64,000 nt of DNA from Acidovorax sp. GBBC 1281 (GTDB lineage: Bacteria; Pseudomonadota; Gammaproteobacteria; Burkholderiales; Burkholderiaceae_C), in the NCBI RefSeq assembly GCF_028473645.1, contig NZ_CP097269.1, positions 2,436,001 through 2,500,000 of the forward strand, in the 5' to 3' direction. Positions 4,043 to 56,841 of this stretch are shown here, piece by piece (positions within the stretch are counted from its first letter, which is position 1; every line of letters begins with the position of its first letter). The position numbers were made by a program, and so were the translations under genes. The notes beneath the pieces were generated by a model that was not told the DNA's origin, did no database searches, and saw only the letters and a program-made list of their open reading frames with translations.

Positions 4043-5098
4043 ATGCTCACCTTTCACAATCCCCTGCACAACGCCCATGCCCCGGTGCATGAGTTCTTTC
4101 GTGGCGAACGGGTGCCGTGCTTCGAGAAGCCGGCGCGCCAGGATTATGTGGAGCAGCGTCTGAAAGAGTGCGGCCATGCGCTCCTGGCACCCAATGTCGA
4201 CAGCGCTGCCGTGTTGAATCAAATCCATGCCGAGCGTTACCTGTCCTTCCTCCAGACCGCGTGGCCGCAATGGCTGGCGCAAGACCCGGCGAATGCCACT
4301 GTTCAGCCGTTTCCCTCCGTGTGGCCGGTTCGCACGTTGCGGTCGGACATCGAACCCGCGAATTTCACGGCGCGCTATGGCCTGTATTCCATGGACAACG
4401 GGACGCCGCTGGCCGAAGGCACCTGGGCCGCAGCCAAGGCCGGCGCGGACGCGGCTGCCAGTGCCGCGTCCGCGATGGCCAGCGGTGCCGCGGGTGCCTC
4501 CTTTTGCGTGACGCGGCCGCCCGGCCACCATGCGGGGCCGGACTTCATGGGAGGCTACTGTTTTCTCAACAACGCGGCCGTCGCAGCCCAGACGCTGCGC
4601 AACTCCGGCATGCCTCGCGTGGCGGTGCTGGATGTGGATTACCACCACGGCAATGGCACCCAAAGCATTTTCTACGAGCGTTCGGACGTGCTGTTCATCA
4701 GCATCCATGGCGACCCGATGACCGAATACCCTTTTTATCTGGGCCATGCGGACGAGACCGGCCACGGTGCCGGAGCAGGCTTCAACCTGAATCTGCCGCT
4801 GCCCGCCGGCACCGGGTTCGACGCATGGTTTGCTGCGTTGGAAAAGGCCTGCACTGCCATCCTGGCTTACGGTCCGCAGGCGGTGGTGGTCTCCCTGGGC
4901 TTGGATACGTTCGAGGGGGATCCCATCTCGCGCTTCTCCTTGGCATCCCAGGACTTTTCTCGGATCGGGCAACGCCTGGCACAACTGAACCTGCCGACCG
5001 TGTTCGTGCTGGAAGGCGGCTATGCCGCGGCGGAGCTGGGCCTCAACGCGGTGAACGTGATCGATGGGTTCGAAGCGCAAGGCAGGCAGCCATCATGA
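4043..5098 (+). CDS. Histone deacetylase-family amidohydrolase
   Basis: A 351-aa zinc hydrolase of the HDAC/acetylpolyamine amidohydrolase superfamily. Visible motifs are RPPGHHAGP around residues 157-165 (catalytic His pair), [11 protein letters not shown] (zinc Asp and His), GLDTFEGDP (zinc Asp) and [10 protein letters not shown] near the end. Bacterial members deacetylate polyamines, lysines or other small amides, and the substrate cannot be read here. The ATG at 4043 gives the common MLTFHNP start; an upstream extension is possible but overlaps the space behind the tRNA terminator. The gene overlaps the following oxidoreductase by four bases (ATGA). Confidence 0.85.
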
Positions 5099-6198
5099 CC
5101 GAGTCGGTGGATTGCGTCATCGTTGGCGCGGGGGTGGTGGGGCTGGCCGTTGCGCGTGCCCTGGCCTTGCGGGGGCGCGAGGTGCTGGTGCTTGAGGCCG
5201 CCAATGCGATTGGCACGGGAACCAGTTCCCGCAACAGCGAAGTGGTGCATGCGGGGATTTACTACCCCCAAGGATCGCTCAAGGCCCGGCTGTGCGTGCA
5301 GGGCCGCGACATGCTCTACGCGTACTGCGAGGCGAGGGGCATCGCGCACCGGCGCTGCGGCAAGCTGATCGTTGCCACGTCGGACGAGCGGCGGGCATCG
5401 CTGGAAAGCATCCAGCAAAAGGCGCATGCCAATGGCGTCACCGACCTGCAATGGCTGACGCGGGAGCAGGCCCGGGCCTTGGAGCCCGCGCTGGAATGCG
5501 TGGCCGCACTGCTGTCGCCCAGTACCGGCATCGTGGACAGCCATGCATTCATGCTCTCGCTCCAAGGCGATCTGGAGCACCAGGGCGGCATCGTGGCACT
5601 GAATTTGCCTCTGGAGCATGCAGTACTAGGGGGTGATGCTATCGTTTTGAAAGCAAGCGACGGCACGCGCTTGAGTGCCCGCACGCTGGTGAATGCCGCA
5701 GGCCTGCAGGCGCCCGATCTGGCCAAACGGTTCCATGGCCTCGATCCGCACCATGTACCAACGGCCCGGTACGCAAAGGGTAGTTACTTCACGCTGACGG
5801 GCTCATCGCCGTTTTCCCGCTTGATCTACCCTGTTCCCGAAGCGGCCGGGTTGGGCGTGCACCTGACACTGGACATGGGCCACCAAGCCAAGTTCGGTCC
5901 CGACGTGGAGTGGGTGGGCTCGGCCGACGACCTGTCGGTCGATCCCGCGCGCGGCGAGGCGTTCTATGCGGAGGTGCGCCGGTATTGGCCCGGACTGCGG
6001 GATGGCGCCCTGGTGCCTGGCTATGCAGGCATTCGGCCCAAGATCCACGGGCCGGGCGAGCCCGCAGCGGACTTTTGCATCCAAGGCCCTGAAACGCATG
6101 GCATGGGTGGGCTCATCCAGCTGTTCGGCATCGAGTCGCCAGGCCTTACCAGTGCCCTGGCACTGGGCGAGCATGTCGCAGATCAAGTCTCCCGCTGA
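5095..6198 (+). CDS. FAD-dependent oxidoreductase (L-2-hydroxyglutarate oxidase-like)
   Basis: A 367-aa protein of the DAO/glycine oxidase superfamily. The N-terminus has the dinucleotide motif [26 protein letters not shown] (about residues 43-54) and the C-terminal [12 protein letters not shown] resemble the L-2-hydroxyglutarate dehydrogenase LhgD group (usual length about 370-400). It is translationally coupled to the deacetylase-like gene upstream. The codons near 5622-5660 are AT-richer than the rest and resemble a small repeat (see findings). Exact substrate is not certain. Confidence 0.8.
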
Positions 6199-10064: not shown

Positions 10065-12104
10065 TCAGGCGTTGCTGGCCATGCCCTGGTGGCGCAGCAG
10101 CGCATCCAGGCTGGGCGCTCGGCCGCGGAACGCCTTGAACGACTCCATGGCCGGACGGCTGCCGCCCGCTTCCAGAATGGCCTGGCGGTAGCGGCGCCCG
10201 GTCTCGGCGCTGGGCAGGCCGTCCGCGCCGGCCGTCTCCTCGAACGCGGCGTAAGCGTCCGCGCTGAGCACTTCGGCCCATTTGTAGCTGTAGTAGCCTG
10301 CGGCATACCCGCCTGCGAAGATGTGGCTGAAGGTGTGGGCGGTGCGGCTGAAGGCCGGCGGCGTCAGCACCGACACCTCGCTGCGGACCTGGGCCAGCAG
10401 GGGCATGAAGTCCTGCGACGGGTCGTGCGAAGTGTGCAGCAGCATGTCGAACAGCGCGAATTCGATCTGCCGCAGCGTGCCCATGCCGCTCTGGAAATTC
10501 TTCGCCGCGATCATCTTGTCGAACAGCGCGCGCGGCAGCGGCTCGCCAGTCTCCACATGGGCGGTCATGTGCTTGAGCACGTCCCACTCCCAGCAGAAGT
10601 TTTCCATGAACTGGCTGGGCAACTCGACCGCATCCCATTCGACGCCGCTGATGCCCGAGACATCGCGCTCGTTGATCTGGGTGAGCATGTGGTGCAGGCC
10701 GTGGCCGAACTCGTGGAACAGCGTGATGACGTCGTCGTGGGTCAGCAGCGGCGGCGCGCCGTTCACGCCTTCGGCGAAGTTGCACACCAGGTGCGCCACG
10801 GGCGTTTGCAGCTTGCCCGTGTCGGGGCGCAGCCAGCGGGTGCGCACATCGTCCATCCAGGCGCCGCCGCGTTTGCCGTTGCGCGCTGGCTGGTCCAGGT
10901 AGAACTGTCCCACGAGCTCCGTGCCGCGCTCGATGCGATAGAACTCCACGGCCGGGTTCCAGACGGGCGCGCTGTCGCGGCGAATGGCCACTTCGAACAG
11001 CGTCTCAACGATCTTGAACAGGCCGGCCAGGGCCTTAGGCGCGGTGAAATACTGTTTGACCTCCTGCTCGCTGAAGGCGTAGCGCGCTTCCTTGAGCTTC
11101 TCGGAGATGTAGGGCCAGTCCCAGGCCTGCGGATCGGCAATGCCGAGATCCTTCGCTGCGAACTCGCGCATGTCGGCGACGTCTTTTTCGGCGTAGGGCC
11201 GGGCACGGCGGGCCAGGTCACGCAGGAAATCGATCACCTCCTGGGGCGAGTCGGCCATCTTGGCGACGACCGATACCTCGCCGAAATTGGCGTAGCCCAG
11301 CAGTTGCGCCTCTTCTTTGCGCAGGGCGAGGATCTCGCGGATGAGGGCGCTGTTGTCGAAGCGTTTGGCATCGCCTTCGGCCTGGTCCGAGGCGCGGGTG
11401 ACATAGGCGCGGTACAGCGTTTCGCGCAGGGCGCTGCTGCGGGCGAACTGCATCACCGGCAGATAGCAAGGCATCTTGAGGGTGAGCTTGTAGCCAGCCT
11501 TGCCCTCGGCTTGCGCCGCGGCCAGTGCGGCCTGCTTCACGTCGTCGGGCAGTCCGTCGAGCTCGTCTTCCCGGGCGTAGTAGGCGAAGGCGTCGGTGGC
11601 GTCGAGCGCGTTTTCGCTGAACTTCTGGCTGAGTTCCGCCTGGCGCTCCTGGATCTGCGCGAAGCGTTCGCGCGCCGCGCCCTGCAGCTCGGCGCCCGAC
11701 AGCACGAAGTTGCGCACGGCGTTGCGCAAGGCCTGGCGCTGCTCGGTGTTCAGCGTCTGCGGATCGATGGCCTTGTACTTGGCGTACAGGCGTTCATCGG
11801 CGCCCAGGCGGGTCCAGAACTCGGTGACGCGGGGCAGGGCCTCGTTGTAGGCCGCGCGCAGTTCGGGGGTGTCGGCCACGCTGTTGAGGTGGCTCACCGC
11901 GCCCCAGGAGCGGCCCAGCGCTTCGGTCGCGACATCCAGCACCTCGGCGATCGATTCCCATCGCGCCGGAAAGTCGGGCGCCGTGACGGTTTCCAGTGCC
12001 GCGCTCGCACGCTGCAGCAGCACATCGACTGCCGGGGCCACGTCGCTGGGCTGGATGCGGTCGAACAGGGGGAGGTCGGAGGGGGCGAGGAGGGGATTGC
12101 TCAT
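10065..12104 (-). CDS. prlC: Oligopeptidase A (M3 metallopeptidase)
   Basis: A 679-aa M3 zinc peptidase that degrades short peptides, including cleaved signal peptides, in the cytoplasm. The zinc motif HEFGHGLHH starts at about residue 464, and the third ligand lies in SGVEWDAVELPSQFMEN. Length matches PrlC/OpdA (about 680). It is the fourth gene of a leftward run (kinase, regulator, folD, prlC), 58 bases behind folD. Confidence 0.95.
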   Translation of the reverse strand: MSNPLLAPSDLPLFDRIQPSDVAPAVDVLLQRASAALETVTAPDFPARWESIAEVLDVATEALGRSWGAVSHLNSVADTPELRAAYNEALPRVTEFWTRLGADERLYAKYKAIDPQTLNTEQRQALRNAVRNFVLSGAELQGAARERFAQIQERQAELSQKFSENALDATDAFAYYAREDELDGLPDDVKQAALAAAQAEGKAGYKLTLKMPCYLPVMQFARSSALRETLYRAYVTRASDQAEGDAKRFDNSALIREILALRKEEAQLLGYANFGEVSVVAKMADSPQEVIDFLRDLARRARPYAEKDVADMREFAAKDLGIADPQAWDWPYISEKLKEARYAFSEQEVKQYFTAPKALAGLFKIVETLFEVAIRRDSAPVWNPAVEFYRIERGTELVGQFYLDQPARNGKRGGAWMDDVRTRWLRPDTGKLQTPVAHLVCNFAEGVNGAPPLLTHDDVITLFHEFGHGLHHMLTQINERDVSGISGVEWDAVELPSQFMENFCWEWDVLKHMTAHVETGEPLPRALFDKMIAAKNFQSGMGTLRQIEFALFDMLLHTSHDPSQDFMPLLAQVRSEVSVLTPPAFSRTAHTFSHIFAGGYAAGYYSYKWAEVLSADAYAAFEETAGADGLPSAETGRRYRQAILEAGGSRPAMESFKAFRGRAPSLDALLRHQGMASNA

Positions 12105-12162
12105 GCGCGGATAGATGGCGTTGGATGGGTCAGGTTCAAGCCGGCCGTGGCAGCAAAAATGG

Positions 12163-13014
12163 TCAGGCGGCTGCGCGCTCCGCAGCTTCGAGCGTGTTGA
12201 CGAGCAGCATGGTGATGGTCATGGGGCCGACGCCTCCGGGCACAGGGGTGATCCAGCCGGCCACCTCGCTCACGCCGGCAAAGTCCACGTCGCCGCAGAG
12301 CTTGCCTTCATCGTTGCGGTTCATGCCCACGTCGATCACCACCGCGCCGGGCTTGACCATGTCGGCCGTGAGCACGTTGCGCTTGCCCACGGCGGCCACG
12401 ATCACGTCGGCCTGCAGGGTCTGCGCCTTCAAATCTTGCGTGGCGCTGTGGCACACGGTCACGGTGGCGTTCTTTTGCAGCAGCATGAGCGCCATCGGCT
12501 TGCCCACGATGTTGCTGCGGCCGATGACCACCGCATGCTTGCCCTGCAGCGAGTAGCCGATGGATTCGAGCATCTTCATGCAGCCATAGGGCGTGCAGGG
12601 CCAGAAACCGGGCATGCCGGTCATGAGCGCGCCGGCGCTGGCGATGTGAAAGCCGTCCACGTCCTTGGCGGGCGAGATCGCCTCGATGACCTTCTGCGCG
12701 TCGATGTGCGCGGGCAGCGGCAACTGCACCAGGATGCCGTGGATGGCCGGGTCGTTGTTCAGGGCCTCGACGCGGGCGAGCAGTTCGGCCTCGCTCATCG
12801 TGGCATCGTACTTTTCCAGCACCGAATGCAGCCCGCTGTCCTCGCAGGCCTTGACCTTGTTGCGCACGTAGACCTGGCTGGCAGGGTTGTCGCCCACCAG
12901 CACCACGGCCAGGCCGGGGACGGTGCCGCGCGCTTTCAGGGCAGCGGCGCGCTGGGCCACTTCGGTGCGCAGTTGGCGGGAGAGGGCGTTGCCGTCGATC
13001 AGTTGGGCTGTCAT
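12163..13014 (-). CDS. folD: Bifunctional methylene-THF dehydrogenase/cyclohydrolase
   Basis: A 283-aa FolD that interconverts 5,10-methylene-THF, methenyl-THF and 10-formyl-THF with NADP. Motifs include the catalytic Tyr and Lys in [18 protein letters not shown], and [14 protein letters not shown] for the cofactor domain. The C-terminus has [15 protein letters not shown]. Length is standard. Confidence 0.96.
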
Positions 13015-13063
13015 TCGTCGAGAAACTCAGGTTGGCAATGAAAACGGCTGCCTGCCGGCGGTT

Positions 13064-13099
13064 TGATTGTGCTGGCAGCTATCAAATCAGGAGCAATCA
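13064..13099. repeat. Short AT-rich palindromic interspersed repeat
   Basis: TGATTG and CAATCA bound a segment containing GCTATCAAATCAGGAGC between folD and the response regulator. Its low GC stands out from the surroundings. I recall similar elements scattered through Comamonadaceae genomes; that link is memory, not a search. It overlaps the regulator stop. Confidence 0.45.
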
Positions 13100-13723
13100 G
13101 CCTTTGGGCGCATTTTGGCCGAGGGCGATCTTGAGCAGGTCGGCCACGGTGTTGGCGTTCAGCTTTTCCATGATGTTGGCGCGGTGCGCCTCCACGGTCT
13201 TGATGCTGATGCCCAGGTCGTCGGCGATCTGCTTGTTCAGGCGGCCGGCGACGATGCGCTCCAGCACCTGGGCTTCACGGCCGGTGAGCTTGGACAGCAG
13301 GGCGTCGCGGCTGGCGGCCTGCTGGTGGCCGGCGAACGATTCGCGCGCCCGGTCGAGCATGCGGTCCACCAGGCCCACGAGCTCTTCCTCGTTGAACGGC
13401 TTCTGGATGAAATCGAGCGCGCCTTTCTTCATGGTGTTCACGGCCATGGGCACGTCGCCGTGGCCGGTGATGAAGACGACGGGCAGGGGGGACTTGCGTT
13501 CGAGGAGCCGGTCCTGCAATTCCAGGCCGGTCATGCCGCCCATGCGGATGTCGACGATGAGGCAGGCGACTTCGCGGGGGTCGTAGCGCGAGAGGAAGGA
13601 TTCCGCCGAATCAAAGCAGCGCACCCGATAGTCCTTGCCTTCCAGCAACCACTGCAGGGAGTCGCGGACGGCTTCGTCGTCATCCACGACGTAGACGGTG
13701 CCTTTTTTCGGAATCAAGCTCAT
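13097..13723 (-). CDS. FixJ/LuxR-type response regulator
   Basis: A 208-aa two-domain regulator. The receiver domain shows VVDDDEAVRDSL, the phospho-acceptor Asp in LIVDIRMGG (about residue 56), and the conserved Lys in FIQKPF. A LuxR-type HTH fills the C-terminus (LTGREAQVLERIVAG, then KTVEAHRANIMEKL). It overlaps the 3' end of the kinase gene by four bases, so the two form a cognate pair. Similar pairs (FixLJ, TtrSR, DctSR-like) control redox or carboxylate use; the target is not evident. Confidence 0.9.
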   Translation of the reverse strand: MSLIPKKGTVYVVDDDEAVRDSLQWLLEGKDYRVRCFDSAESFLSRYDPREVACLIVDIRMGGMTGLELQDRLLERKSPLPVVFITGHGDVPMAVNTMKKGALDFIQKPFNEEELVGLVDRMLDRARESFAGHQQAASRDALLSKLTGREAQVLERIVAGRLNKQIADDLGISIKTVEAHRANIMEKLNANTVADLLKIALGQNAPKG

Positions 13724-51370: not shown

Positions 51371-51724
51371 ATGAGCAACATTGGGCCGAGGCTGCGCAGT
51401 GAACGCGAGAGGCTTGGTCTGACCCAGGACGCTCTGGCTGACGCAGTTCAGGTGTCAAAGCGCGCGCTCATCAACTACGAAAAAGGCGATCGCAGCCCGG
51501 ACGCAGATTTGCTGGCTGCCGCCGCATCTGTTGGCGTGGATGTGCTGTACGTCCTTACGGGTCAGCGCAGCCAACCGGCACCCGCGACGAGCGCTCTGAC
51601 AGAGGGAGATCGCAAGTTGCTGGAAAACTTCCACGCAGCGCCCCAGCAGGTGCAGGCGGGGGTAAAGACCACGCTAGGCGCGTTCGATCCTTCGGCGGGC
51701 GCTCGGCGCGGAAAGGCCGCGTGA
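51371..51724 (+). CDS. XRE-family phage repressor
   Basis: A 117-aa protein with a cI/XRE HTH at residues 5-62 (LGLTQDALADAVQVSKRALI, then YEKGDRSPDADLL) and a short C-terminal region, no protease domain. It reads rightward from the control region and is the probable immunity repressor. The cargo pair follows after 37 bases. Confidence 0.82.
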   Translation: MSNIGPRLRSERERLGLTQDALADAVQVSKRALINYEKGDRSPDADLLAAAASVGVDVLYVLTGQRSQPAPATSALTEGDRKLLENFHAAPQQVQAGVKTTLGAFDPSAGARRGKAA

Positions 51725-51761: not shown

Positions 51762-52745
51762 ATGTCTTTGCCGCTGCGCAAACGCACGGTGCATTTCTAT
51801 GAAATCCACTTGCACTCGTTTACGAAAGCCGCCGTTAAGAATCCGTCGTGCGCTTCCCTAACGGATCTACTTAAACACTTCGCCTTGCTGGCCTCAGGCA
51901 GCAAGCTCCCGCGCACTGTTAGGCAATCCTCGCAGTTGCATACTGTTCTCGCTGACTGGAGTTACGATGAAAACAACAACTGCTATGAACTGTTGGTGAG
52001 TAAAGCCAACGCAGCGTTGTCGGACGTGGCTCTGCGCGACTTGGGGACAGCCAGACTACGAAGGGCGAATAAGACAAAAGTCGAAGGTATTGAGGTTTCT
52101 GCTCACGTGCTTATCCGCCCGAATGCGGACCGCAAGAGAGCAGCCCTACTATTGACGATGGGGGCTGGCGTATCGTCCAAAGACATCGAGGTGTTGTTAA
52201 GGCAACTCTCCCGGTTGGCCGCGAAAGATCCTCGCAGCAGGGCCCTCTTTTATTTCGATGAACCTTCTGGCGCCAGAGGGCCTGATGGCAAACCGCTGCA
52301 ATACAAAGTTCAGTATGGTTTTGCAGCCTTTGGCCATCAAGGCCAAACCCTCGCGACTGCCCTGAGAACGGGGGAATTCGAGAGCATGGAATTGATCGCA
52401 CACGAACAAGAGAAGTTCGATGCTGGCGGAAACTTGGAAATCGTGGAGCGGAGCATTGGCATTCAGGCCAAGCTTCCCAAAACGGTCACGGGCGCATCTG
52501 TCCGAAATGCAGTGCGTTCATTTCAGCAAACTCCCGATGGAGCCTTGTATGACAAACTGAGGCTTCATTACAAGACGGTTGCAGGCAAACGAACCAGCGC
52601 AGTTTTGGATATCAAGAACTTGGATGCTGCATTCACGCTCAAAGAACACATCGAGTTTGACTCGGATGTGGACGCACAACAGGAAAAGCTTGAATCTGTC
52701 ATTCTCAGAGGCATGAAGCCGCTGTTGCAACTGGTACCCCTGTAA
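51762..52745 (+). CDS. Unrecognised 327-aa cargo protein
   Basis: A soluble 327-aa protein in a region of visibly lower GC than the phage genes. It opens RKRTVHFYEIHLHSF. Mixed alpha/beta composition, with an extended basic segment (LRDLGTARLRRANKTKVEG, about residues 90-108) and an acidic C-terminal part. No catalytic motif that I can name. A strong AAGGGGG precedes the ATG. It forms an operon with the four-helix membrane protein 11 bases downstream. The two-gene architecture is reminiscent of small defence or exclusion systems; function is not shown. Confidence 0.75.
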   Translation: MSLPLRKRTVHFYEIHLHSFTKAAVKNPSCASLTDLLKHFALLASGSKLPRTVRQSSQLHTVLADWSYDENNNCYELLVSKANAALSDVALRDLGTARLRRANKTKVEGIEVSAHVLIRPNADRKRAALLLTMGAGVSSKDIEVLLRQLSRLAAKDPRSRALFYFDEPSGARGPDGKPLQYKVQYGFAAFGHQGQTLATALRTGEFESMELIAHEQEKFDAGGNLEIVERSIGIQAKLPKTVTGASVRNAVRSFQQTPDGALYDKLRLHYKTVAGKRTSAVLDIKNLDAAFTLKEHIEFDSDVDAQQEKLESVILRGMKPLLQLVPL

Positions 52746-52756
52746 ACGTAAACGAC

Positions 52757-53320
52757 ATGCTGGACCTTATCAGGCCCTTCTCATTCCTCACCATCAAGCA
52801 TCCATCACGGTTACCGTTGTGGGTGAACTGGGTGTTGCCCGTCGTCCTGACGGCGCTGGTGATGGTTGGACTTTGGTTGCTGAAAACTCCAGTGAACATC
52901 TTCGGAGCGCAAGGTTTGCTTGAGCGTGTGCTCGGCTTCGTGCAAACATTGGCAGGCTTTTACATCGCGGCATTGGCCGCGGTCTCGTCTTTCAATAGCC
53001 CGCATCTGGATCGTGAAATGCCTGCTCCTGCTCCCACGATGTACATCAAGTACAACGGAGTCATGCAAAACGTGACAGCGACCAGACGACGTTTTTTGAC
53101 GTCGATGTTCGCGTACCTCACCGCTTTGAGCATTGTCCTCAGCCTAGTGGCGATAGCCGTTCTAGTTCTTGCTCCTGCCATCACAGTGACTTGGCCAGAC
53201 TCTGCAGCGAAGTTACATTGGGCTGGGCTTTTCGGGTTTCTTTCCGCACTTTTCCAGATGACGTGCGTTACTTTCTGGGGCCTTTTCTACCTTGGCGAAC
53301 GCATGCTTACTCCAGATTGA
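52757..53320 (+). CDS. Unrecognised 187-aa four-helix membrane protein
   Basis: Four hydrophobic segments at about residues 21-43, 60-81, 113-138 and 155-178 predict a small inner-membrane protein. A loop of about 30 residues (HLDREMPAPAPTMYIKYNGV) lies between helices 2 and 3. Low GC and cargo position match its partner upstream. In prophages such membrane partners often act as effectors or exclusion proteins. The pair size recalls Kiwa (KwaA/KwaB), but gene order is reversed and I see no sequence match. Confidence 0.72.
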   Translation: MLDLIRPFSFLTIKHPSRLPLWVNWVLPVVLTALVMVGLWLLKTPVNIFGAQGLLERVLGFVQTLAGFYIAALAAVSSFNSPHLDREMPAPAPTMYIKYNGVMQNVTATRRRFLTSMFAYLTALSIVLSLVAIAVLVLAPAITVTWPDSAAKLHWAGLFGFLSALFQMTCVTFWGLFYLGERMLTPD

Positions 53321-53654
53321 GTTTCGGCGCTGAAAATAGGGTCCCGGTTCCCAATACACGAAACGCCCCTCTGCAGACACTGACGCCTTACCCCTCAAGG
53401 GGCCGTCACTGCCTGCCCAGGAGGGGCCATGCAACTCAGAGATTCCATCCCCGTTTGGCTGCGCGCGCCACGCAATTCGCTTTGGCTCGTCCTCGCCATC
53501 GTGTTGATCGCATTGATCGCGGCAATCGCCCCGCAAAAGCTCAGCCTCACGATCTACAAGTCTTCGCTCGTCGCGCTTGCCGCCGTCATGGGCTACTGGC
53601 TGGACCGGGCCCTGTTCCCGTATGCCCGGCCCGACAGCTACTTGCACAAGGACT

Positions 53655-53662
53655 GGCGCCTG
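53655..53662. repeat. 8-bp target duplication of the IS66 element, left copy
   Basis: GGCGCCTG, repeated at 56842-56849. Eight bases is the standard duplication of IS66-family elements. Confidence 0.92.
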
Positions 53663-53709
53663 GTAAGCGCCGTCTCAGCCCCCCTCTTGACGCGGGATCG
53701 ACGGAAGAA
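53663..53709. repeat. IS66 left terminal region
   Basis: Starts GTAAGCGCCGTCTCAG. The right end, inverted, reads GTAAGCGTCTTCTTAG, a match at 13 of 16 positions. GTAA is the conserved tip of this family. Confidence 0.85.
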
Positions 53710-53865
53710 CTACAGCAGGTCGCTCTCACCGTCGCGACGCACGAGCATGGCCAGGCAGTTGCTGCCATCGGCGGCCGTGGCGACGCACTCGTGCGGTGGC
53801 AGCGCACCGATCGTGATGTCGCCGCCGTCCTCGATCAGGGCCTTGATGTAGTTCGTCCGAGACAT
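53710..53865 (-). CDS. 51-aa passenger protein of the IS66 element
   Basis: MSRTNYIKALIEDGGDITIG begins a 51-residue acidic protein ending in TAG. It starts seven bases after the pRiA4b-like gene stop, so both are co-transcribed. No domain recognised; HECVATAADG is a possible conserved core. Confidence 0.55.
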   Translation of the reverse strand: MSRTNYIKALIEDGGDITIGALPPHECVATAADGSNCLAMLVRRDGESDLL

Positions 53866-53871
53866 CGTCGC

Positions 53872-54453
53872 TCAGACCTTGATCGCGGCGAGCCGGTCGT
53901 TGATCTCGATGCTGTCGAAGGCCAACGGGTCCCAGGTATCGGCACCGATCCATTCGACCAGGTTGTCGTGCTCGGGATCGTCAGGGTTCGCCATGGCCCG
54001 CACGAACTCCGCATAGCCCGGTGCGCCTCCGCAATCCTCCGGCGGCGTTGCACAGGCACCGCCGGCACAGAACGGGAGCACGAACTGCGGCATCGGTGCG
54101 ATCTTCTTCTCGACCTTGATGCGGTGGTCCCAGTAGTCCCCGAAGTCGTAGACGTAGCTCAGCGTCGACCGGTTCAGGGCAGTGGTCAGTCGCGTGCTTT
54201 CGCTGGTGATCGAGCCAGGCTCGTCGTGCATCGGGTCTGGCGTGCCATAGCGCTCGCCGTCGCCAGCGATGAACTCGTGCAGATGCGAGTGGCCCCAGCC
54301 GAAGGCAGCCTGGACCACAAGATGCAGCTTGGCCAGGGTGATCGTCTCTGGCACCAGGACGCGGCGCCAGACCTTGGGCTTGGTGCCGCGCAATTCAATG
54401 TGCAGTTGCAGGATCGCCGCTGGTGCCTTGATCCGTTGGACCTTGCTCGCCAT
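53872..54453 (-). CDS. Plasmid pRiA4b ORF-3-family protein
   Basis: A 193-aa protein of the pRiA4b ORF-3 family: LQLHIELRGTKPKVWRRVLV at the start, HLHEFIAGDGERYG, then YVYDFGDYWDHRIKVE. The family is often found within transposable elements and has no proven role. The ATG follows the tnpC stop by two bases, so it is a passenger co-transcribed with the transposition genes. Confidence 0.88.
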   Translation of the reverse strand: MASKVQRIKAPAAILQLHIELRGTKPKVWRRVLVPETITLAKLHLVVQAAFGWGHSHLHEFIAGDGERYGTPDPMHDEPGSITSESTRLTTALNRSTLSYVYDFGDYWDHRIKVEKKIAPMPQFVLPFCAGGACATPPEDCGGAPGYAEFVRAMANPDDPEHDNLVEWIGADTWDPLAFDSIEINDRLAAIKV

Positions 54454-54455
54454 GC

Positions 54456-55912
54456 TCAAGCTGCTTGTCGTTGGTCTTCGGCGTGTCGGCCGATGTTCCA
54501 CGGCAGCAACTCGTCGATGCGATTGATCGGATGGTCCGCAATGCGCCCGAGCACATCGCGCAGGTAAGCCTCGGGGTCGAGCCCGTTCAGCTTGGCCGTC
54601 TCCACCAGGCTGTAGATGGCCGCGGCGCGCTCGCCCCCAGCGTCCGAGCCCATGAACATGAAGTTCTTGCGGCCCAGGCTCACGCCGCGCAGCGCGCGCT
54701 CGGCGGCGTTGTTGTCGATCTCGATGCGACCGTCGTCACGGTAGCGCGTCAACGACCGGAGCCGTGTGAGCGTGTAGCCGATGGCGCGTGCGAGTTCCGA
54801 CTTGGCACACACCTGCCCGAGCATCCCTCGCAACCAGGCGAACAGTTCCTCGAGCAACGGCCCGGCTCGCGCCTGCCGCTCCCGGCAGCGCTCATCCGGT
54901 GGGCGGCCGCGGATGTCGGATTCGATCGCATACAGCGCACCGATGCGCCGAAGGGCCTGTTCTGCAACCGAGCCCTGCGCCCGCCCCTGGCTCTCGTGCA
55001 GATCCCAGAATGGTCTGCGCGCATGCGCCCAGCACGAAGCCTCGATGACGTTGCCGTTTGCATAGAGCTTGGCGAAGCCGGCATACGCATCGGCCTGCAA
55101 CACGCCCTTGAAGTTCTTCAGGTGCGCCTGAGGATGTTCACCCTTGCGGTCGGGCGAGTAACGCAACCACGCCGCGGGCGCGTCTGCACTCGCAGATGAC
55201 CGATCGTCACGCACGTAGACCCAGAGCCGCCCGGTCTTGGTCTTGCCCCGCCCGGGCGAGAGCACCGCCACTGGCGTGTCGTCGGCGTGGAGCTTGGAGC
55301 CCGCCAGCACGTAGCGCCCGAGCGCTGCGACCAGTGGGTGCAAGAGCTTCTCGCTCTGGCCGACCCAGCCAGCCATCGTGGAGCGCTCGATCAGGACGCC
55401 CTCGCGTGCGTAGATCCGGCTCTGGCGGTACAGCGGTTGGTGGTCGCAATACTTGGCGACCAGCACGTGGGCCAGCAGCCCGGGGCCGGCCACGCCGCGT
55501 GCGATGGGCCGGCTGGGCGCTGGCGCCTGGAAGATCGATTCGCACGCCATGCAGGCGAGCTTGGGGCGCACGTGGCGGATCACCTTGAAGCGCGAGGGCA
55601 CGTACTCCAGTTGTTCCGAGACGTCCTGGCCGATCTGCCGCAGCCGACCACCACATGCGCTGCAGCCGCAGGCCTGGCCGGCGGCATCGCGCCGCGCATC
55701 CGATGTCTCGGGCCGGTACACATGGTTCTCCCGCGGCAGGTGTGTGGGCAGGCTGCGGTCGAAGCCTTCGCTGTTGGCCGCTTGCGCCTTCGGTGTCTTG
55801 CCGACCGGTGCGAGTTCATGAGCAGTTTGAGCAGGGCGACTTCCGCGTCACGGGCCTGCACGACACGCAGCAGCGAGTCGACGGTGTGGGGTGCGTTGGC
55901 GGTGTTCGGCAC
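54456..55912 (-). pseudogene. IS66 transposase TnpC with N-terminal deletion/frameshift
   Basis: The catalytic part (frame 54456-55840) is complete, with the zinc-finger region [20 protein letters not shown], the DADAYAGF-type core (LQADAYAGF), [12 protein letters not shown] and [12 protein letters not shown]. The true N-terminus ([20 protein letters not shown], from about 55912) lies in another frame. The usual coiled segment with RxQFGRSSE is missing between them. An out-of-frame internal deletion of roughly 100 bases near 55820 explains this. Start codon of the original gene is uncertain (GTG at 55912). Confidence 0.8.
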
Positions 55913-55989
55913 GCCATCTACTATGCCATCGGACCTACCCGGAATCGACCGCGACCAGCGCGTTCAGAAGACGAATTCTTGAGCCCAGT

Positions 55990-56337
55990 TCAAGCTGCGA
56001 GCGCAGGCTGATCTGTGCGCATCGGCATGCGCCAGTCGATGCCTTCGAGCAGCATCGAGAGCTGTGCCGGCGTGAGCGAGACCTTGCCGCCTTGCGCCTG
56101 CGGCCAGACGAATCGGCCGCGCTCCAGGCGCTTGGCCAGCAGAAGCAATCCCTGGCCATCGAACCACAGCACCTTGAGCATGTCGCCGCGCCGGCCGCGG
56201 AAGACGAAGACGTGACCGCAGAAGGGGTTGGCCGCCAGCGCCGTCTGCACCATCGCAGACAGGCCGTTGAAGCCCTTCCTCATGTCGGTGTGGCCGGCAA
56301 CGATCCAGACGCGGGTGCTCGTGGGAAGGCCGATCAC
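55990..56337 (-). CDS. tnpB: IS66 accessory protein TnpB
   Basis: A 115-aa IS66 Orf2-like protein: VWIVAGHTDMRKGFNGLSAM and FVFRGRRGDMLKVLWFDGQG are the family signatures. It starts with GTG at 56337, overlapping the tnpA stop (GTGA). Needed together with TnpA and TnpC for transposition. Confidence 0.92.
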   Translation of the reverse strand: MIGLPTSTRVWIVAGHTDMRKGFNGLSAMVQTALAANPFCGHVFVFRGRRGDMLKVLWFDGQGLLLLAKRLERGRFVWPQAQGGKVSLTPAQLSMLLEGIDWRMPMRTDQPALAA

Positions 56338-56735
56338 GCCAGCGCCTTGAGCGTCTGCAGGACATGGCGCACGCTGGCTTCGTCGACTGCACCGCGCAAT
56401 CGCACCCTCGCCCCGCCGACATCGATCTCGATGGTCCCGCCAGGCTGACGAGGCGCCGCCGCCGTGGGTGAAGGGCATGGCGCAACCGGAGCAGCTTCGA
56501 TGGTGACGGGCAGCAACATCGGCGAGGGCTGCGGCGGCGCTGGCGTCTGGGGCTGCTCTTGCGTGCTCAGGTGCATCCGGCGCCATGCGAACAGCAGGTT
56601 CGAGTTGATGCCGGCCTGCAGCGCGACGGCGGCCACTGACGCGCCGGGCACCAGGCTTCGTGCGACCAGCTCGCGCTTGAACATCGGGCTGTGCTCGCGC
56701 CGACGGCGCTTGCTCGGGGTGTCTTGATCGTTCAT
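56334..56735 (-). CDS. tnpA: IS66 accessory protein TnpA
   Basis: A 133-aa protein with an N-terminal HTH_Tnp-like domain (RRREHSPMFKRELVARSL, then VALQAGINSNLLFAWRRM) and a Pro-rich middle. The C-terminal segment is a short IEIDVGGARVRLRGAVD. First gene of the IS66 operon. Confidence 0.92.
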   Translation of the reverse strand: MNDQDTPSKRRRREHSPMFKRELVARSLVPGASVAAVALQAGINSNLLFAWRRMHLSTQEQPQTPAPPQPSPMLLPVTIEAAPVAPCPSPTAAAPRQPGGTIEIDVGGARVRLRGAVDEASVRHVLQTLKALA

Positions 56736-56841
56736 TGATGTGCATTAGCGGTTCTTCATGCACACCATCGCAGCGTACATGGACCACCGAGCCTGCACAT
56801 CAGCCCTCAGCAAAAACAGAGGGTACTAAGAAGACGCTTAC

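Follow-up and report, generated by a model that had tools for sequence, protein, structure and literature searches.

Rex exclusion has been known for about 70 years, and its trigger is unsolved. In phage lambda the genes lie in the order cI-rexA-rexB and encode a soluble and a membrane protein. A second system, RexABpp (PP_5643/PP_5644), is carried by Pseudomonas putida prophage P1, and its ability to block phages was shown in January 2026 (PMC12894663). We analyzed a 64,000-nucleotide stretch of the Acidovorax sp. GBBC 1281 genome (contig NZ_CP097269.1, positions 2,436,001 to 2,500,000; hereafter, the window), in which a prophage carries two genes, here called A and B, between its repressor and holin genes. 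A encodes a soluble protein of 327 amino acids (aa), and B encodes a small membrane protein of 187 aa. The pair belongs to the PADLOC candidate family PDC-M53 and is likely a RexAB-type abortive-infection (superinfection-exclusion) module that would act by A-triggered membrane damage through B.

The main text of the P. putida study (PMC12894663) describes an experimentally studied relative. Both genes were required for phage exclusion, and RexApp bound DNA non-specifically. Overexpression of RexApp was toxic only with RexBpp present, and rexB was mutated in seven of 38 sequenced survivors of this overexpression. The effect was an increase in membrane permeability, with no measurable depolarization, and substitution of RexBpp Y181 lowered toxicity. 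No contact between RexApp and RexBpp was seen in a two-hybrid test. By the authors' count, RexAB-like systems number only five.

Both proteins encoded in the window matched the subunits of PDC-M53, a candidate system of PADLOC-DB 2.0.0 that consists of two adjacent genes. A aligned with PDC-M53A over residues 7-322 of 327 (model positions 5-318 of 320; E = 8.9e-37), B aligned with PDC-M53B over residues 3-186 of 187 (E = 3e-55), and the two genes are adjacent on the same strand. Broad alignments of A (68 members) and of B (82 members) consisted entirely of proteins that matched models named PDC-M53 (E ≤ 0.1). When the PADLOC scan was extended to E = 10, A matched only PDC-M53A models, and B matched PDC-M53B and 2TM Effector (E = 9.5); Kiwa models, which we take to be part of PADLOC, were not listed. 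The PDC-M53 entry itself is a database candidate with no description or attached function. No Pfam, NCBIfam, or known-function PHROG family fitted A or B significantly, and the PHROGs that were matched carry no function (phrog_35178 for A, E = 1e-4; phrog_8257 for B, E = 3e-37). Matches below the cut-off were all for B: Far-17a_AIG1 (E = 0.02), an effector family (E = 0.37), and a tail protein (E = 0.66). The initial annotation had proposed an undescribed exclusion or defence cargo made of a soluble partner and a membrane effector, and had named homology to a structural, lysis, or regulatory family as the result that would speak against it; family scans returned no significant match of this kind for either protein. 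Its exclusion or defence reading is well supported, but "undescribed" does not stand, given PDC-M53 in PADLOC and a tested member of RexAB type. We found no paper naming PDC-M53 in the open-licence literature (preprints excluded), and the main text of PMC12894663 contains neither "PADLOC" nor "PDC"; within that scope, the connection between PDC-M53 and RexAB appears to be new in print.

This connection was made through a family member, L060, that agrees with RexABpp in layout, in protein mass, and in six of seven named residues. Because L060 was taken as the RexABpp locus, the window pair is considered homologous to RexApp and RexBpp. B was 37% identical to the RexBpp-like B of L060 (E = 9e-36), and A was 21% identical to the L060 A across 251 residues (E = 1e-5). 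An alignment of A proteins resembling that of the window matched the alignment built around L060 (the RexApp clade) over 310 columns (prob 99.6, E = 5.5e-25). The two loci have homologous A and B genes in identical order downstream of a prophage repressor, and both combine a soluble DNA-binding protein with a membrane protein having four transmembrane segments, properties that are predicted for the window pair. Apart from the modest identities, the loci differ in phage type and in spacing, since two genes separate the repressor from A in RexABpp whereas none does in the window.

The alignments also place the substituted residues of RexBpp. Y181 corresponds to Y178 of the window B and is Tyr in 74 of the 82 B members. 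F35, L55, and S145, which were also substituted, are variable among B members, and four positions are invariant in all 82 (G67, F68, R111, and G175). S113 and H115 are conserved in A (66 of 68 members).

The relationship to lambda RexAB is one of layout and, tentatively, of predicted fold. The predicted model of A resembles the RdgC/lambda RexA/Iml3 fold group, and the repressor-A-B order of the window, with its combination of a soluble and a membrane protein, corresponds to cI-rexA-rexB. The predicted model of B contains the four helices that had been expected from its sequence, all of them long (residues 19-42, 54-78, 110-145, and 147-182; pLDDT 90.7). Lambda RexA belongs to PF15969, whereas the window A lies outside this family: PF15969 did not match it up to E = 1, nor any of the 68 A members up to E = 0.1. 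An expanded RexA alignment aligned with the C-terminal end of A across 90 columns at E = 0.003 (prob 10) and gave nothing with the L060 clade. B (187 aa, versus 144 aa for lambda RexB) showed no significant similarity to lambda RexB by hhalign with a single RexB sequence (prob 0.5, 26 columns). A RexAB-like mode of action is thus supported for the pair, but membership in the lambda RexAB sequence family is not.

Linkage of the two genes was analyzed in 97 B loci, 17 from genome contigs and 80 kept of 124 confirmed viral-contig matches, many of them near-identical (67 B clusters and 57 A clusters at 85%). In 95 loci, B was adjoined by an A gene or a fragment of one; a first A profile accounted for 92, and the second, which reached 95, drew in part on sequences from these loci but on none of the three gained. 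Some loci are partial, with A reduced to a fragment where the contig begins (L091), a short A (L036 and L044), or a split B (L028). The gap between A and B ranged from -32 to 26 nt in all loci but one, and the outlier of 143 nt reflects a split B. Of the two loci without A, L046 is cut by the contig edge. The other, L015 (3510 bp), holds B without A at 371-2268 with a transposase ORF just upstream, as judged by eye, and is perhaps a broken copy. Distances among A proteins and among B proteins were correlated across 67 non-redundant pairs (r = 0.90; none of 2000 permutations was as high, the largest giving 0.14), as expected for genes travelling together. Recurrence of the pair as a unit, the support that the initial annotation had asked for, extends to the unrelated phages SfII, Mcat23, and a Vibrio phage.

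In Shigella phage SfII (L098), the pair corresponds to SfII_50/SfII_49 (4281-5895), both annotated as hypothetical proteins. It lies between Q and the holin gene, far from cI, and runs antiparallel to the lysis genes. The B relatives in SfII and in Moraxella phage Mcat23 were found by tblastn, and in each the adjacent upstream gene is of A size, as in the window; an SfII-type pair (L073) also matched the A profile (E = 1.2e-10). The Mcat23 pair, likewise annotated as hypothetical, lies behind a same-strand gene of 237 aa, and its A-sized partner was assigned by size and position. Vibrio phage 10N.286.54.C7_PE001 (L099; 14.6 kb, tailless, Vinavirales) carries the pair at 11753-13298, beside an integrase gene. 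The family is sporadic, occurring in two of 17 genomes of the genus and three of 299 of the taxonomic family, and close copies of the SfII type were present in nine of 5426 Escherichia coli genomes, all chromosomal. Same-strand ORFs just upstream of A included 13 with HTH_3, 10 with Peptidase_S24, and seven with antiterminator Q among 120 ORFs from 79 of the 95 loci (duplicates removed; several ORFs per locus possible).

Homology, fold resemblance, genetic linkage, and location, all computed here, lead us to favour a RexAB-type module, and by analogy with RexABpp we infer the same activity for the window pair. The repressor gene is probably the first gene of a transcript that A and B would share. 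A single repressor-A-B transcript is most likely given the operon description in the main text of the P. putida paper (PMC12894663), and a lysogen would therefore hold A and B before superinfection. A, with its predicted RdgC/RexA-like fold, would probably be a dimer that binds DNA like a clamp and independently of sequence. A DNA or DNA-protein state specific to infection, for example replication or recombination intermediates, would alter A, and altered A would switch on B, possibly by contact. B, a predicted four-helix inner-membrane protein that is probably oligomeric, would then injure the inner membrane, and growth would stop before the phage cycle is complete, aborting the infection.

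The position of the pair directly behind the repressor could also be explained if A tuned the repressor through operator DNA and B antagonized it, exclusion being a side effect. Such a role has been proposed for lambda RexA, which biases the bistable switch according to the text of PMC11077077. We consider this quite unlikely for the pair, since deletion of rexAB in P. putida left repressor gene expression unchanged (PMC12894663), and the pairs of SfII and the tailless Vibrio phage lie far from cI and next to an integrase gene, respectively. The pair might instead be a lysis accessory, with B acting as an antiholin or a second holin under the control of A. In favour of this, the membrane protein B is small, and the pair precedes holin and lysozyme genes in the window and, among 108 loci, in 10 others. 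However, no lysis family is matched by B, PADLOC groups it in a defence candidate, the SfII pair is oriented against the lysis genes, and the Vibrio pair adjoins an integrase gene, making this role highly improbable.

Tight linkage in nearly all loci would suit a toxin-antitoxin-like pair, possibly with reversed roles, in which one partner inhibits the other at rest and infection releases it. Mycobacteriophage Butters gp30/gp31, in which the RexA-like protein is the effector (as told in the main text of PMC12894663), offers a precedent. In P. putida, by contrast, A activates B, as the RexBpp-dependent toxicity of RexApp and the rexB mutations among survivors indicate, so we regard this arrangement as very improbable.

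Features of the window that form or flank the pair are listed below.

Coordinates of the gene pair and its surroundings in the 64-kb window.
Feature	Position	Strand	Description
Prophage repressor (HTH_3)	51371-51724 if ATG start, otherwise from 51308	+	Pfam HTH_3, E = 1.1e-10
Gene A	51762-52745	+	327 aa; PDC-M53A, predicted RexA-like DNA-binding sensor
Gene B	52757-53320	+	187 aa; PDC-M53B, predicted RexB-type four-helix membrane effector
Holin gene, 5' part	53429-53662	+	Holin_2-3, E = 3.5e-26, phrog_1528; context, outside the system
Insertion element	53663-56841	-	3179 bp, judged by eye to be IS66-like; delimited by its ends and an 8-bp direct repeat; context

The tight pair described in the initial annotation was confirmed: both reading frames are intact, with a terminal stop codon only, and are separated by 11 nt. 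A starts 37 nt after the end of the repressor gene, and the holin gene starts 108 nt after B. The low base composition noted earlier also held within the 64-kb window, where the pair has a GC content of 52.5% against a mean of 65.4% (standard deviation, 2.7%; 1249 segments of 1559 nt) and only the segment on the pair itself was as low. The edge is gradual on the repressor side, because GC is somewhat low in the repressor gene too (59.5%).

The holin gene is cut at 53663 by the insertion element, which is flanked on both sides by the 8-bp direct repeat GGCGCCTG; its IS66-like label was assigned by eye, the minus-strand transposase ORFs lying outside the family scan. Because the holin gene is broken, the prophage is probably lysis-defective, with the exclusion pair intact. 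With own copies excluded, a search of 108 loci showed 10 in which a relative of the window's holin follows the pair (L001, L019, and L108 look like one locus in this count); related transposable prophages thus share the slot. The prophage had been called BcepMu-type. B3-like fits at least as well because, among the matches listed, its transposase was closest to that of Pseudomonas phage Komp_PAO1_1 (60%), followed by Bise (44%) and B3 (33%), in a phage collection that did not include BcepMu itself. In phages B3 and Komp_PAO1_1, other small genes occupy the slot of the pair.

Some copies at genome loci (L003-L017) have restriction-modification, integrase, and conjugation genes in their vicinity, and a prophage is not evident there. 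Neighbours among the matches listed included integrases, conjugation proteins, ArdC, SspH, DrmMII, and type III and IIG restriction-modification proteins, few of each. These scans, which had no background control, covered 78/104 called neighbours (longest non-overlapping ORFs) at 13 selected genome loci and give the first 25 of 88 and of 97 families, with matches pooled across loci; one methyltransferase could match many models. L009 and L012 have an equal-sized gene (434 aa) directly upstream, and MgsA_C was matched by two members.

Through the link to RexABpp, PDC-M53 changes from a nameless candidate in a database to a family of which one member has been tested. The type of system was already known; what is gained is the recognition that PDC-M53 is of RexAB type, together with the breadth of the family, which adds many natural variants, including that of Shigella phage SfII. 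The conserved positions of A and B are concrete sites for probing infection sensing and membrane harm, respectively, and exclusion cargo in small tailless-phage genomes, such as the 14.6-kb Vibrio phage, is worth a look. We further propose, tentatively and with somewhat less than even confidence, that the PDC-M53 family of RexAB-type modules is widespread and mobile and joins a DNA sensor of RdgC/RexA fold to a membrane effector that has no relationship to lambda RexB. If so, one sensor fold would have been coupled to differing membrane-damaging effectors, and the pair would confer immunity as a self-contained module, whether carried by transposable, lambda-like, or tailless phages or located at sites in bacteria that are close to restriction and conjugation genes.
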